Source: Gammaproteobacteria bacterium
GTDB taxonomy: Bacteria > Pseudomonadota > Gammaproteobacteria > Xanthomonadales > SZUA-36
Length of the DNA: 64,000 nt
Direction: 5' to 3'
Assembly: GCA_021772915.1 (NCBI GenBank)
Contig: JAJFLB010000016.1
Coordinates: 101,984 to 165,983 of the forward strand
The notes below the pieces were generated by a model that saw only the letters and a program-made list of their open reading frames with translations, had not been told where the DNA came from and did no database searches. Shown here in pieces: positions 44,411 to 49,525 of the stretch (its first letter is position 1; every line of letters begins with the position of its first letter). The position numbers and the translations under genes are program-made.

Positions 44411-44439
44411 GTAGGACTGACCAGCTTGCTGGTCGGGAA
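44411..44439 (+). repeat. REP hairpin 11
   Basis: GTAGGACTGACCAGCTTGCTGGTCGGGAA; compensatory stem change. Confidence 0.88.
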
Positions 44440-44458
44440 TTGTTCAGGTTATTACAGG

Positions 44459-44487
44459 ATCCCGACGAATGAATTCGTCGGTCCTAC
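44459..44487 (-). repeat. REP hairpin 12, inverted mate of REP 11
   Basis: Reverse complement GTAGGACCGACGAATTCATTCGTCGGGAT. Confidence 0.9.
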
Positions 44488-44520
44488 ATCCACCATGGCC
44501 CAGGCCGGTCTCTCGACCGG

Positions 44521-44549
44521 TTCCCGACGAATCAATTCGTCGGTCCTAC
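44521..44549 (-). repeat. REP hairpin 13, carries stop codon of rquA
   Basis: Reverse complement GTAGGACCGACGAATTGATTCGTCGGGAA. Confidence 0.9.
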
Positions 44550-45316
44550 TCAATACGTGTCGCAACAACTTTCTGAAACAAATCACCGAAGCGGCGCTCT
44601 TTGCGCCAGCTGTATTGGTCCGGTTGATCAGCGAAGTGCTTGATTTCATTCCGCCACAGACCCTTGGCAAAGGGCTCCAGCGTATCAAAGACAAGGCTCG
44701 TGATGAGTTTCAGGGGATGCCACCAGCGTGGTTTGTGATAGTCAACAAACACAGCCTTGCCACCCGGGGCCAGACGATTCAGAAACAGGTTGACCGCTTC
44801 GCGTTTGTGCACGTCAGGCAGCTCATGTAACAAAAAGTAGCAGCACACGACATCAAAAAGTTTATGGCCCATGTGCAGTACGTTGCCATGATGCACTGTT
44901 GCCTGTGGGTAGCGCTTAAGCTTGACCCGCGTATTGACCACCTGAATTTCGGCCACGTCGTATACATCCAGGGATCCTTGCGGACCAATATGTTCCGCCA
45001 GGCAGGCCGAGAAACTTCCATAAACACAAGCAGACTGCAAAACGCTCTGTCCCGGCTCTATTTCCATGAAGGCAGTTTTTTGCAAACGTTTGTGTTGCTG
45101 CCAGAGGATTGTTCTGACCACCACGTCACGATCAAGAAGCCTTACATTACGTGGATTGATATATGCCCAGTAATAGGTATCCTGCAAATAATCCGGAATC
45201 TCCGGCTGCGTTGCAACAAAAGCCTTGTGTGCCGACTCTGGCTGGATTTTAGTCCCGGGTACTGTTGTATCATGGAGCAGGCTCGCGGTTGTGCTTGTCG
45301 ATACAAAATCATCCAT
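44546..45316 (-). CDS. rquA: class I SAM-dependent methyltransferase, RquA-like (rhodoquinone biosynthesis)
   Basis: IPDYLQDTYYWAYINPRNVRLLDRDVVVRTILWQQHKRL, VLQSACVYGSFSACLAEHIGPQGSLDVYDVAEIQ, FVDYHKPRWWHPLK resemble RquA; start placed at MDDFVS (45316), just after the ubiT stop. Confidence 0.8.
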   Translation of the reverse strand: MDDFVSTSTTASLLHDTTVPGTKIQPESAHKAFVATQPEIPDYLQDTYYWAYINPRNVRLLDRDVVVRTILWQQHKRLQKTAFMEIEPGQSVLQSACVYGSFSACLAEHIGPQGSLDVYDVAEIQVVNTRVKLKRYPQATVHHGNVLHMGHKLFDVVCCYFLLHELPDVHKREAVNLFLNRLAPGGKAVFVDYHKPRWWHPLKLITSLVFDTLEPFAKGLWRNEIKHFADQPDQYSWRKERRFGDLFQKVVATRIE

Positions 45317-45326
45317 TGTATTACCC

Positions 45327-45836
45327 TCAGTGGTGGTTGTTGCGATGACACTGATCATCGGTATTTTGTTGAATAACCTGACTCAAAACCTGTAGGAATT
45401 TTCGTAGCGGCATTGGCAAATCTTCCCAATCCATGCTGTCCATGGTGTTCTTGATCCCCAGGCCAAGCTCTGTATCACCTTCAATCCGGATCCGACGCTG
45501 AAAAAACAGGGTATCCGGATCGGCCTGTCTGATCGCCAACAAAATAAAATCCATGCTTTCACCGGAGATACTGACATCGTCCGGCAGTTTGCGGTCTACC
45601 GGGGTGAATCGATCCGAGCCAACATTGATCAGCCAGTCGATATTGAGGTCAGTGATCTTTATCCTGATTTTCGCCCCTTCCAGAAAACCCACTTCACCGT
45701 GTTGAATCGGGGTCTGAAAAGCCTTGTTCAGAACCAGGGAGAGCAGTGGCTTCTGGGCGGAATAGGGAATGTATTTCCCCGGAATGCCGATGACTCTCCT
45801 GGTGATGGAATAAAGCAATTCAATTCCTGGCAGCAT
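45327..45836 (-). CDS. ubiT: SCP2-domain ubiquinone biosynthesis accessory factor UbiT
   Basis: SCP2 fold (FLEGAKIRIKITDLNIDWLINVG...LFFQRRIRIEGDTELGLGIKNTMDSMDWEDLP); divergent from ubiUV. Confidence 0.85.
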   Translation of the reverse strand: MLPGIELLYSITRRVIGIPGKYIPYSAQKPLLSLVLNKAFQTPIQHGEVGFLEGAKIRIKITDLNIDWLINVGSDRFTPVDRKLPDDVSISGESMDFILLAIRQADPDTLFFQRRIRIEGDTELGLGIKNTMDSMDWEDLPMPLRKFLQVLSQVIQQNTDDQCHRNNHH

Positions 45837-45895
45837 GCTCTGTCTCTCTCAGGGGTTAGCCCGTGATCAGTATATTTAGGGATATTGACAATGTA

Positions 45896-45909
45896 TTGAC
45901 GCAGATCAA
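45896..45909. promoter_or_regulatory. FNR/ANR-type binding site
   Basis: TTGAC-GCAG-ATCAA versus consensus TTGAT-N4-ATCAA (one mismatch), in the ubiT/ubiU divergent intergenic region. Confidence 0.65.
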
Positions 45910-45999
45910 GGTAACGTCGGATTCTGCACCTAAAATTGCAGGCTTGATTACATCTGTGCAGATTACTGCTGTAACCTGTGGGCCAACATTGGAGTAAGC

Positions 46000-46995
46000 A
46001 TGGAATTGGTGTGTCCGGCGGGTAATTTGCCTGCGCTCAAAGCTGCGATCGATAATGGCGCTGATGCGGTTTATGTCGGCTTCAGGGATGACACCAATGC
46101 ACGTCATTTCGCCGGTTTGAATTTCAATGAACGCAGCATTGTAAAAGCCATCCGTTACGCCCGCGACCGGAGCCGAAAGGTTTTTGTGGCAATTAATACT
46201 TTCCCCCAGTCGAGACATTTCGGTCGCTGGCGCACAGCCGTGGACCGGGCGGCGGATTATGGCGTTGATGCGCTGATACTGGCCGATATGGGGGTGCTTG
46301 ATTACGCCAGTAACCAGTGGCCGGATCTACGTTTGCATTTATCGGTGCAGGCATCTGTGACCAGTGCCGAGGGCATCCGCTTTTATCATGAGAATTTTGG
46401 TGTCAGGCGGGTCGTCCTGCCGAGGGTGTTGTCGGTCAACCAGGTCGCCCGGGTGATCACCGAATCTCCCGTTCCGGTTGAAGTTTTCGGGTTTGGAAGC
46501 CTGTGTGTCATGGTTGAGGGTCGCTGTTTGCTGTCCAGTTACGCCACCGGCAAGTCTCCGAACACCTATGGTGCCTGTTCCCCGGCCTCGCACGTGCGCT
46601 GGGAAGAAACACCCACCGGGACCGACACCCGTCTCAACGGGGTCTTGATCGACCACTACGATGAGGGCGAAAAGGCCGGTTACCCAACCTTGTGCAAGGG
46701 ACGCTTCCAGGTCGGCAAGAACACCTTTTATGCCCTGGAAGAACCCACCAGCCTGAACACCCTGTCAATCCTGCCGCAACTAAAGCAGATTGGTGTCAGC
46801 GCGATAAAAGTCGAAGGACGCCAACGCAGCCCGGCCTACGTGGCGCAGGTTACCGCCGTAATGCGTGCAGCGATTGACAGTTGTATGCAGGATCCGCCTG
46901 GTTATCAGGCGAAAGAGCAATGGATGAACGCACTCGGAGGTGTTTCCGAAGGGGCCCAGACCACGCTCGGTGCTTATCACCGGCCCTGGCAATGA
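46000..46995 (+). CDS. ubiU: U32 peptidase-family O2-independent ubiquinone hydroxylation protein UbiU
   Basis: MELVCPAGNLPALKAAIDNGADAVYVGFRDDTNARHFAGLNF, GRCLLSSYATGKSPNTYGACSPA. Confidence 0.92.
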   Translation: MELVCPAGNLPALKAAIDNGADAVYVGFRDDTNARHFAGLNFNERSIVKAIRYARDRSRKVFVAINTFPQSRHFGRWRTAVDRAADYGVDALILADMGVLDYASNQWPDLRLHLSVQASVTSAEGIRFYHENFGVRRVVLPRVLSVNQVARVITESPVPVEVFGFGSLCVMVEGRCLLSSYATGKSPNTYGACSPASHVRWEETPTGTDTRLNGVLIDHYDEGEKAGYPTLCKGRFQVGKNTFYALEEPTSLNTLSILPQLKQIGVSAIKVEGRQRSPAYVAQVTAVMRAAIDSCMQDPPGYQAKEQWMNALGGVSEGAQTTLGAYHRPWQ

Positions 46996-47900
46996 CCCGC
47001 ATGCAAACAATGAGACTGTCAGTCGGGCCCATCCAGTACTTCTGGGAGCGTCAGCGGGTGCTGGATTTCTACCAGCAAGCCGCCGACAGTGCCGCGCAGA
47101 TCATTTACCTGGGTGAGGTTATTTGCTCGAAGAGACGTCTGGTGAAGTTTGCTGACTGGCTCGCCATCGGAAACGAACTCAAACAAAGCGGCAAACAGGT
47201 AATTTTGTCTTCGTTGACCTTGCTTGAGGCTGCGTCTGAAATCGGCACTCTGAAAAAGCTCTGCAGTAACGATGCTTTCATGGTGGAAGCCAACGATGTC
47301 GCCGCGATCCAGCTGTTGACCGCAGCCGGCAAGGACTATGTCGGTGGTCCTGCGCTCAACATCTACAATCATCACAGCCTGCAACTACTCGCCGGGAAAA
47401 ACCTTAAACGGTGGGTATTACCAGTGGAACTGGGTCTGGAAGCCTTGAGAGACTTGCACTTGCACCGCCCCGAAGGTGTAGAAACGGAAGTATTTGCACT
47501 GGGACGTCTGCCGCTGGCGTACTCGGCACGTTGCTATACAGCAAGATCGCACAATTTGCCCAAGGATGATTGTCAGTTCAAGTGTCTGGACTACCCCAAT
47601 GGCCGTATGCTGAAAACCCGGGAAAACCGGGACTTCCTGGTATTAAATGGCATTCAAACCCAGTCGGCACTGACGCACCAGGTGCTCGACCAGGTAACAG
47701 AACTGGCGTCTCTGGGTGTCGACGTACTTCGAATCAGCCCCCAGAACACGGACACCATGCGGATTATTGAGCTATTTTCGGCTGCCTGCAAAGGGCGTGA
47801 GTTGACTTCGCTAACTGAAGAACTGCTCAGCATGTTGCCGCTGGGCGCTTGTAACGGGTACCTGACACAGCAAGCAGGAATGGATTATGGGCCTCAATAA
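46992..47900 (+). CDS. ubiV: U32 peptidase-family O2-independent ubiquinone hydroxylation protein UbiV
   Basis: LSVGPIQYFWERQRVLDFYQQAADSAAQIIYLGEVICSKR, LGRLPLAYSARCYTARSHNLPKDDCQFKC; ATGA overlap with ubiU. Confidence 0.92.
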   Translation: MTRMQTMRLSVGPIQYFWERQRVLDFYQQAADSAAQIIYLGEVICSKRRLVKFADWLAIGNELKQSGKQVILSSLTLLEAASEIGTLKKLCSNDAFMVEANDVAAIQLLTAAGKDYVGGPALNIYNHHSLQLLAGKNLKRWVLPVELGLEALRDLHLHRPEGVETEVFALGRLPLAYSARCYTARSHNLPKDDCQFKCLDYPNGRMLKTRENRDFLVLNGIQTQSALTHQVLDQVTELASLGVDVLRISPQNTDTMRIIELFSAACKGRELTSLTEELLSMLPLGACNGYLTQQAGMDYGPQ

Positions 47901-49401
47901 ATTGCTCGACCACCATCGCCGCCAGACCAGCAGAAAGGCCTGGGGCAGTCTGGGACAATTCACCACCGCACTGGCAGATGCCGGACAACTCAAGACCGTA
48001 CCCCAACCGGTCTCACCGCAGCTACAGATTACCGAGCTGTGCCATCGCAGCCTGACCAATGAAGGCCCGGCCTTGTTGTTTGAGAATCCGCAGGGCTTTG
48101 ACATGCCGGTACTGGGTAACCTGTTTGGTAATGAGCAACGGGTATTGACCGCCCTGGAGTTAAACTCCCGCCAGGAATTACACGCATTGGGGTGTGAGTT
48201 TGCCTTCCTGAGAAACCCCAGGTTGCCCGATAACCGTAAAGCCGTATTGGATGTGATACCTGAGTTTTCAAGGCTGGCACACGTTACCCCGACCCAGAAA
48301 GATACCGCTCCATGGCAGGCACAAGTTATTGAGGGCCCTGATATTGACCTTGGCAGACTGCCGATTTCCACCTGCTGGCCAGAAGATGCAGGCCGCCTGA
48401 TCAGCTGGGGTATGGTGATTACCCGGGGTCCAAATCAATCCCGGACCAACCTCGCCATTTACCGGCAACAGGTCATTGATAAAAACAAGCTGATCATGCG
48501 CTGGCTGCCCCACCGCGGTGGCGCCCAGGACTACCGTGAATTCCAACAAGCACAGCCGGGAGAGCCTTTTCCGGTGGCCGTTGTCATTGGTGCGGACCCG
48601 GCCACACTCCTGGCTGCAGTGACCCCAATCCCGGACAGTCTGTCCGAGTACCAGTTTGCCGGTCTGCTACGCGGTTGCAGGAGCAAGGTGGTCACCTCTG
48701 CCCTGACTGGCCTACCCATCCCGCAAGGTGCTGAAATCGTACTCGAAGGTCATATTCAACCCGGTGAAATGGCCACCGAGGGCCCGTTTGCGGATCATAC
48801 CGGTTATTACAACTCACGCGCGGACTTCCCCGTGTTCACAGTAGATCGGATCAGCCAGAGGGATGACCCGGTTTATCTGACCACCTACCTTGGCAAACCG
48901 GGACAAGACGAACCCTCAATCATGGCTGCAGCCCTCAACGAGATGTTCATACCGTTGTTGCAGGAACAGTTTCCTGAAATTGTGGACTTCTACCTGCCAC
49001 CAGAAGCCTGCTCCTACCGTGTCGCCATCGCCAGCATCCGCAAACAGTACCCGGGTCATGCACGCCGGATCATGTTTGGCATTTGGTCATGGCTGCGGCA
49101 GTTTACCTACACCAAGACAATCATCGTGACCGATGACGATATTGACATTCGAAACTGGAAGGAAGTGGTGTGGGCCATTTCCACCCGTGCTGACCCGGTA
49201 CGTGACACGGTCCTGGTAGAAAACACACCCATCGACTATCTGGATTTCGCCAGTCCAAAACCGGGTCTGGGTGGCAAAATGGGTATCGACGCCACCAACA
49301 AGATCAAAACTGAAACCGATCGTGACTGGGGCCGTGTTGCCAACATGGACAGTGCGACCAAGGAACAGGTCGAGGACATTGCCCAGGCATTAGGGCTGTA
49401 G
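47887..49401 (+). CDS. ubiD: UbiD family decarboxylase (4-hydroxy-3-polyprenylbenzoate decarboxylase)
   Basis: QITELCHRSLTNEGPALLFENPQGFDMPVLGNLFG, EGPFADHTGYYN, KMGIDATNK; 14-nt overlap with ubiV. Confidence 0.92.
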   Translation: MGLNKLLDHHRRQTSRKAWGSLGQFTTALADAGQLKTVPQPVSPQLQITELCHRSLTNEGPALLFENPQGFDMPVLGNLFGNEQRVLTALELNSRQELHALGCEFAFLRNPRLPDNRKAVLDVIPEFSRLAHVTPTQKDTAPWQAQVIEGPDIDLGRLPISTCWPEDAGRLISWGMVITRGPNQSRTNLAIYRQQVIDKNKLIMRWLPHRGGAQDYREFQQAQPGEPFPVAVVIGADPATLLAAVTPIPDSLSEYQFAGLLRGCRSKVVTSALTGLPIPQGAEIVLEGHIQPGEMATEGPFADHTGYYNSRADFPVFTVDRISQRDDPVYLTTYLGKPGQDEPSIMAAALNEMFIPLLQEQFPEIVDFYLPPEACSYRVAIASIRKQYPGHARRIMFGIWSWLRQFTYTKTIIVTDDDIDIRNWKEVVWAISTRADPVRDTVLVENTPIDYLDFASPKPGLGGKMGIDATNKIKTETDRDWGRVANMDSATKEQVEDIAQALGL

Positions 49402-49426
49402 GACCGACGAGCTTGCTCGTCGGGAA
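49398..49426 (+). repeat. REP hairpin 14, carries stop codon of ubiD
   Basis: GTAGGACCGACGAGCTTGCTCGTCGGGAA. Confidence 0.93.
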
Positions 49427-49496
49427 CCCTTCAAGCCTGCACAGAACACTGTCCTGGGGCGCTTAGGTCCAGGAAATTGTATTTTTGTGGTCACCA

Positions 49497-49525
49497 TTCC
49501 CGACGAACAAGTTCGTCGGTCCTAC
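49497..49525 (-). repeat. REP hairpin 15, carries stop codon of the RND permease
   Basis: Reverse complement GTAGGACCGACGAACTTGTTCGTCGGGAA. Confidence 0.93.

Follow-up and report, generated by a model that had tools for sequence, protein, structure and literature searches.

A candidate low-oxygen quinone locus with rquA beside ubiTUVD, and a second rquA of another clade behind fumarate reductase in the same genome

Does an RquA-like methyltransferase gene that lies directly behind ubiT form, with the neighbouring genes for O2-independent ubiquinone synthesis, one module for making rhodoquinone? The question is raised by a locus in the window, a stretch of 64,000 nucleotides from a gammaproteobacterial contig (JAJFLB010000016.1). 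Gene identities were assigned with NCBIfam equivalog or subfamily models and their own cut-offs (Table 1). Five genes had been proposed here from the letters of the DNA, with rquA-ubiT divergent from overlapping ubiU-ubiV-ubiD; the family models agree with them at the same coordinates. The UbiT, UbiU, and UbiV equivalogs all exceed their cut-offs at a single locus, with ubiV after ubiU. The UbiD protein was assigned at the subfamily level, and scores 673.9 bits against the E. coli-type UbiD equivalog PRK10922 (cut-off 788).

The ubiT-rquA pair is divergent from ubiU-ubiV-ubiD. A gap of 10 bp separates ubiT from the downstream rquA on the same strand. The ubiV start shares ATGA with the ubiU stop, and ubiD overlaps ubiV by 14 bp. 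There is a GAGGG Shine-Dalgarno-like stretch just 5' of the rquA ATG at 45316, a start that agrees with the start in relatives. Cysteines are found at 169, 176, 193, and 232 in UbiU, and at 45, 181, 194, and 198 in UbiV; these sets we take to be the iron-sulphur cluster-ligand positions of the E. coli proteins, slightly shifted in UbiV. The gene order is kept in relatives, so the arrangement is not due to chance. The ubiD gene also neighbours ubiTUV in relatives without rquA. The G+C content is lower in rquA (50%) and ubiT (49%) than in ubiU, ubiV, and ubiD (53-57%). Palindromic REP-like repeats starting GTAGGACCGACGA flank the block and reach as far as the end of rquA. There are 12 matches in the window, and similar copies elsewhere in it occur singly or as inverted pairs.

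Table 1. Positions of the features discussed (window coordinates unless a locus label is given).
Feature	Position	Strand	Assignment and evidence
rquA, class A	44546-45316	-	predicted SAM-dependent ubiquinone-to-rhodoquinone amino transferase; NF038261, 285.8 bits (cut-off 175)
ubiT	45327-45836	-	SCP2-domain accessory factor of O2-independent ubiquinone synthesis; NF047962, 134.5 bits (cut-off 46.9)
FNR-type box TTGACGCAGATCAA	45896-45909	.	between divergent ubiT and ubiU; 1 mismatch to TTGATNNNNATCAA
ubiU	46000-46995	+	U32-family partner in O2-independent ring hydroxylase; NF047963, 557.9 bits (cut-off 440)
ubiV	46992-47900	+	second O2-independent ring hydroxylase partner; NF047965, 372 bits (cut-off 275)
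ubiD	47887-49401	+	prenylated hydroxybenzoate decarboxylase; TIGR00148 (subfamily), 497.9 bits (cut-off 244.85)
REP-like repeats	44411-44549 and 49398-49525		flanking the rquA-ubiTUVD block
frdABCD-rquA (class B), contig C39	L006:1915-6079	-
MtrB/PioB-type and DmsE-type genes	L006:6195-9477	-
Histidine kinase and response regulator	L006:11524-14582	+
Class C ubi-slot loci	L037, L038, L039, L041, L042
Class C2 genes	L043:7789-8622, L044:7574-8461, L029 near 1480

RquA differs from ordinary methyltransferases in motif I, where Gln and Val replace Asp and Gly (PMC7813818). Motif I of the window protein is VLQSACVYG, with both residues present, as in all 54 class A and all 36 class B rows compared (90 in total), the two classes being the main RquA clades described below. 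D120 of the window protein is the equivalent of D118 of R. rubrum, which contacts the SAM ribose, and is Asp in every row compared. N145 lies at the D143 position of R. rubrum, as mapped by the 25-residue spacing from D118 without the R. rubrum sequence. The family's other class A proteins likewise have Asn at this position, as do Pararhodospirillum oryzae and a small number of further proteins. Inactivity as the meaning of this Asn was set aside, given its presence in P. oryzae and others. Of R. rubrum Asp118 and Asp143, the double Ala mutant alone was assayed (PMC9814641), so N145 is no argument for a loss of activity. In the tree, the window RquA belongs to the class A clade (support 92/95), with Rhodospirillaceae and other alphaproteobacterial RquA, and is far from the genome's own UbiE-like protein (contig C28, a long outgroup). 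Searches of solved structures, by sequence and by fold, returned general class I methyltransferases alone, including Coq5, and were non-discriminating. Membership of the RquA clade, which the original prediction had proposed, was thereby borne out by equivalog score, motif I, and tree; judged from its sequence, the minus-strand gene is a genuine rquA. Compared with RquA of Rhodospirillum rubrum (PMC9814641, also the source for RquA chemistry), the window protein shares the family model, the motif I Gln/Val, the D118 equivalent, and a variable N-terminus, and it groups with Rhodospirillaceae proteins. It differs in having Asn at D143, in adjoining ubiT, and in the presence of a second rquA from the other clade in its genome.

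This second rquA was found by the genome search on contig C39 (283.4 bits, above the RquA cut-off). It is a class B gene, directly 3' of frdA-frdB-frdC-frdD. FrdA scores 960.5 against the quinol:fumarate reductase equivalog, and FrdB also exceeds its cut-off; frdC and frdD had no NCBIfam match at E 1e-30 and were therefore assigned by size, place, and resemblance. Contig C4 carries an SdhCAB-like set of its own. The one gene for ribosomal protein L9 in the genome is on C39, next to dnaB- and alr-like genes, so this contig is not stray DNA. An origin of the second rquA from assembly contamination was ruled out by this sole L9 gene and by the pairing of both classes in six genomes. Directly upstream of frdA are genes for an MtrB/PioB-type outer membrane protein and a DmsE-type decaheme cytochrome, likewise found in loci L124 and L127; by this gene content, extracellular electron transfer is possible. 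The same contig encodes a histidine kinase with CxxCH-type sensor motifs and a sigma-54 response regulator. Kinase and regulator genes of the same size are near frd-rquA in L046 and L055, and a similar pair is near rquA in L179.

The two RquA proteins of the window genome are 36% identical, and lie on opposite sides of the deepest RquA split (clade supports 92/95 and 94/96). Forcing the class A and class B sets of the family into one clade was rejected (AU p about 1e-49), which rules out a recent duplication as the origin of the two genes. Both classes were found in six genomes of the family: the window genome (G000), G004, G012, G013, G014, and G036. In an earlier study (Stairs 2018, PMC5953543), RquA was divided at its deepest split into Groups A and B, and among 182 organisms none was known to encode both. 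The class A/B split is a probable match to these groups; the taxa named for them fit classes A and B, in a comparison made by taxa and not within the Stairs alignment. Our observations resemble that study in the two-group split and in the placing of rquA near complex II genes, as in frdABCD-rquA. They differ in that six genomes here carry both types. They very probably contradict the published claim that the two types never occur in one organism, a claim that had served reasoning on the entry of rquA into eukaryotes. One class B frd-rquA locus (L120) is filed under Synechococcaceae cyanobacterium SM1_2_3; the tree places it with Competibacteraceae, and that bin is therefore probably mislabelled or contaminated.

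The linkage of rquA with ubiTUVD is rare. The sample comprised 80 rquA loci from GTDB genomes, 55 of class A and 25 of class B. The ubiU gene was in reach in 5/80 loci, all of class A, and frd genes in 14/55 class A and 17/25 class B loci, the remainder having neither; these counts are lower bounds because many loci are short. Of the five ubi-linked loci, four come from the family of the window genome and one from a Woeseiaceae genome. In this genome, Ww311, a class A rquA is next to an FNR-like gene and ubiDVU-ubiT (L068), and a second class A rquA heads frdABCD (L064). Since it also pairs a frd-linked with a ubi-linked copy, the arrangement of one copy at frd and one at ubiTUVD apparently had two separate origins. 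The genomes represented by L075/L079 and L076/L077 likewise have two class A rquA genes, of which one is at frdABCD and the other is elsewhere. Within the family, rquA is 3' of ubiT in G000, G004, and G014, and 3' of ubiD in G012 and G013. With the gene behind ubiT, behind ubiD, or off the locus in different relatives, ubiT-rquA co-transcription is not general.

These placements differ from what has been described. Stairs 2018 found respiratory genes often within 15 genes of rquA, and candidate quinone biosynthesis enzymes not near it (PMC5953543); the window rquA, in contrast, adjoins ubiT. The ubiTUV loci with FNR sites surveyed in Pseudomonadota (PMC11707229) also have an FNR-type box separating ubiT from a divergent ubiU-ubiV; in the window, rquA in addition follows ubiT, and ubiD follows ubiV. 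A ubiTUV locus with rquA is not described in the survey's main text (PMC11707229). In the literature within reach, for the most part main texts of open-access papers, no report of rquA inside a ubiTUV locus was found.

In five congeners (G001, G002, G003, G007, and G008), a different RquA-like gene, here called class C, lies next to ubiT and is convergent on it. These genomes have no class A gene, and retain class B with frd. The far side of the class C gene is occupied by ribokinase and nucleoside hydrolase genes, which flank the window locus too. Of the family's 14 genomes with ubiU, 10 have an RquA-family gene at the ubi locus when classes A and C are pooled. The class C proteins score 147-148 bits, below the RquA cut-off of 175; their motif I keeps Gln, with Val replaced by Ala in 5/5, and the tree places them outside A+B. 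At the N-terminus, which is disordered in RquA, the predicted model has a helix of ~32 residues whose sequence is hydrophobic; class C is apparently membrane-anchored. The nearest distinct match beyond the group is 35% identical (300 genomes of the order), and none was found at E 1e-30 in 369 other gammaproteobacterial genomes, a sample without a positive control.

The original prediction had pointed to ubiX and a fumarate reductase as genes to look for elsewhere in the genome. Both were found, and frdABCD is full-length and of the E. coli type. Two flavin hydroxylases of the ubiH/ubiI type (aerobic route) are encoded beside a pepP-like gene. UbiD and UbiX also serve aerobic ubiquinone synthesis, which the organism has too; judged by these genes, it can probably make ubiquinone in the presence of oxygen and in its absence. 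MenD had no match above its cut-off in the genome (matches up to 71 bits; of the MenD and futalosine routes to menaquinone, the search covered the first). Rhodoquinone is likely to be the low-potential quinone of the organism, because frdABCD, ubiX, and an FNR homologue are present with no MenD above cut-off. The O2-independent ubiquinone pathway was reported in 73/84 rquA genomes (PMC11707229). One of the organisms in that survey, Magnetococcus marinus, is similar in combining this pathway with rquA in one genome, and its RQ8 was measured; it lacks the O2-dependent pathway and an FNR site, whereas in the window organism both pathways are encoded and an FNR-type box is present.

An exact FNR palindrome is at the matching place between ubiT and ubiU in six relatives, and one with 1 mismatch in two more; for these, within-region shuffles were as good in at most 1% of trials. 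No good FNR-type match was found between ubiT and ubiU in L047 and L068. The conserved box is in line with published FNR sites at the ubiTUV loci of Pseudomonadota (PMC11707229). The FNR homologue of the window genome scores 225.6 bits, 2.4 short of the E. coli-type cut-off of 228, contains CxxCx5C, and is encoded beside a hemN-like gene. FNR might regulate both divergent transcripts. FNR-type boxes 5' of frdA showed no consistent pattern.

Phylogenetic and gene-order analyses suggest that the locus is probably a low-oxygen quinone module feeding rhodoquinone respiration, which explains the whole best. Observed are the identity and order of the genes, an FNR-type box kept in relatives, the frdABCD-linked rquA, and the descent of the two copies from different clades; the model's predictions for co-transcription, its control, catalysis, and the path of electrons are as follows. 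On a drop in oxygen, an FNR-type regulator would switch on the ubiT-rquA and ubiU-ubiV-ubiD transcripts. O2-independent hydroxylation of the ubiquinone ring would be the task of UbiU and UbiV, assisted by UbiT as an accessory lipid-binding factor, and UbiD with UbiX would decarboxylate the precursor. RquA, which uses SAM and Mn2+, would then exchange one methoxy group of ubiquinone for the amino group of SAM, giving rhodoquinone. FrdABCD, the quinol:fumarate reductase whose operon lies elsewhere and ends in the class B rquA, might oxidise the rhodoquinol. By gene position, one rquA is at each end of what is predicted to be the same oxygen-free respiratory pathway. Against the model stand the Asn at the D143 position, the score of the FNR homologue just under the E. 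coli-type cut-off, the single mismatch in the box of this genome, and the varying position of rquA among relatives. The earlier proposal of an anaerobic module leading from ubiquinone to rhodoquinone is thus well supported by the genes, with the qualification that frd adjoins the rquA on C39, not the window copy. The parts were already known; what is new is that they are physically joined, that fumarate reductase has an rquA from the other clade next to it, and that class C takes the place of class A in five congeners. A single genome links O2-free ubiquinone supply, its conversion to rhodoquinone, and the rhodoquinol-using enzyme.

Other readings of the locus were weighed against this model. 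A UbiE/UbiG-like methyltransferase of ubiquinone synthesis might be misread as RquA, as the fold is common to both and there is a weak Pfam UbiE match (27.5 bits). However, the RquA model far outscores the best MenG models (44-47 bits) and UbiE (24.5), motif I has Gln/Val in place of Asp/Gly (PMC7813818), and the separate UbiE-like gene on C28 forms the long outgroup of the tree; the probability of a misreading is close to nil. The linkage might also be a passive leftover of horizontal transfer, which brought rquA beside ubiT by chance and with no functional tie to ubiTUV. The known lateral movement of rquA (PMC5953543, PMC11707229), the repeats on both sides of the block, and the lower G+C content of rquA and ubiT are in keeping with such an origin. 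But five family members have the linkage, in one or other of two arrangements, it recurs in the Woeseiaceae genome, and class C fills the same slot in five congeners, which makes a chance neighbourhood very unlikely.

Somewhat less improbable, yet still unlikely, is that the class A protein of the ubi locus is an RquA relative with a changed function (making a different quinone, or acting with UbiT, UbiU, and UbiV as a regulator or chaperone), and that the frd-linked class B protein makes the rhodoquinone. A change of this kind could account for two RquA-family genes per genome, for the Asn at the D143 position throughout class A of the family, and for the filling of the slot by the divergent class C. 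It fits poorly with the full RquA score and motif I, with the same Asn in Pararhodospirillum oryzae and others, and with the frequent frd linkage of class A elsewhere (14/55 loci). The low-oxygen module, with a genuine RquA at the ubi locus, remains the preferred reading.

The two partner-specific rquA genes and class C make a natural set for asking why two rhodoquinone synthases are kept. A dedicated second RquA-family enzyme at the ubi site may act with, or on the output of, UbiT, UbiU, and UbiV, with a distantly related RquA serving fumarate reductase; in five sister species, a membrane-anchored class C, as a new quinone-modifying enzyme, may have displaced the ubi-linked copy. This proposal is speculative, and we give it roughly one chance in a handful. 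The class C relative also prompts the question of whether RquA-like enzymes yield quinones still undescribed. A close relative of class C is encoded in G026 (L040), beside an L-aspartate oxidase-like gene. In L043, a member of a further RquA-like group, class C2, lies 5' of genes for S-(hydroxymethyl)glutathione dehydrogenase and S-formylglutathione hydrolase; RquA releases methanol, and a tie to these glutathione-linked genes may or may not exist. The class C2 proteins score about 164 bits, just below the cut-off, and retain the motif I Gln/Val.
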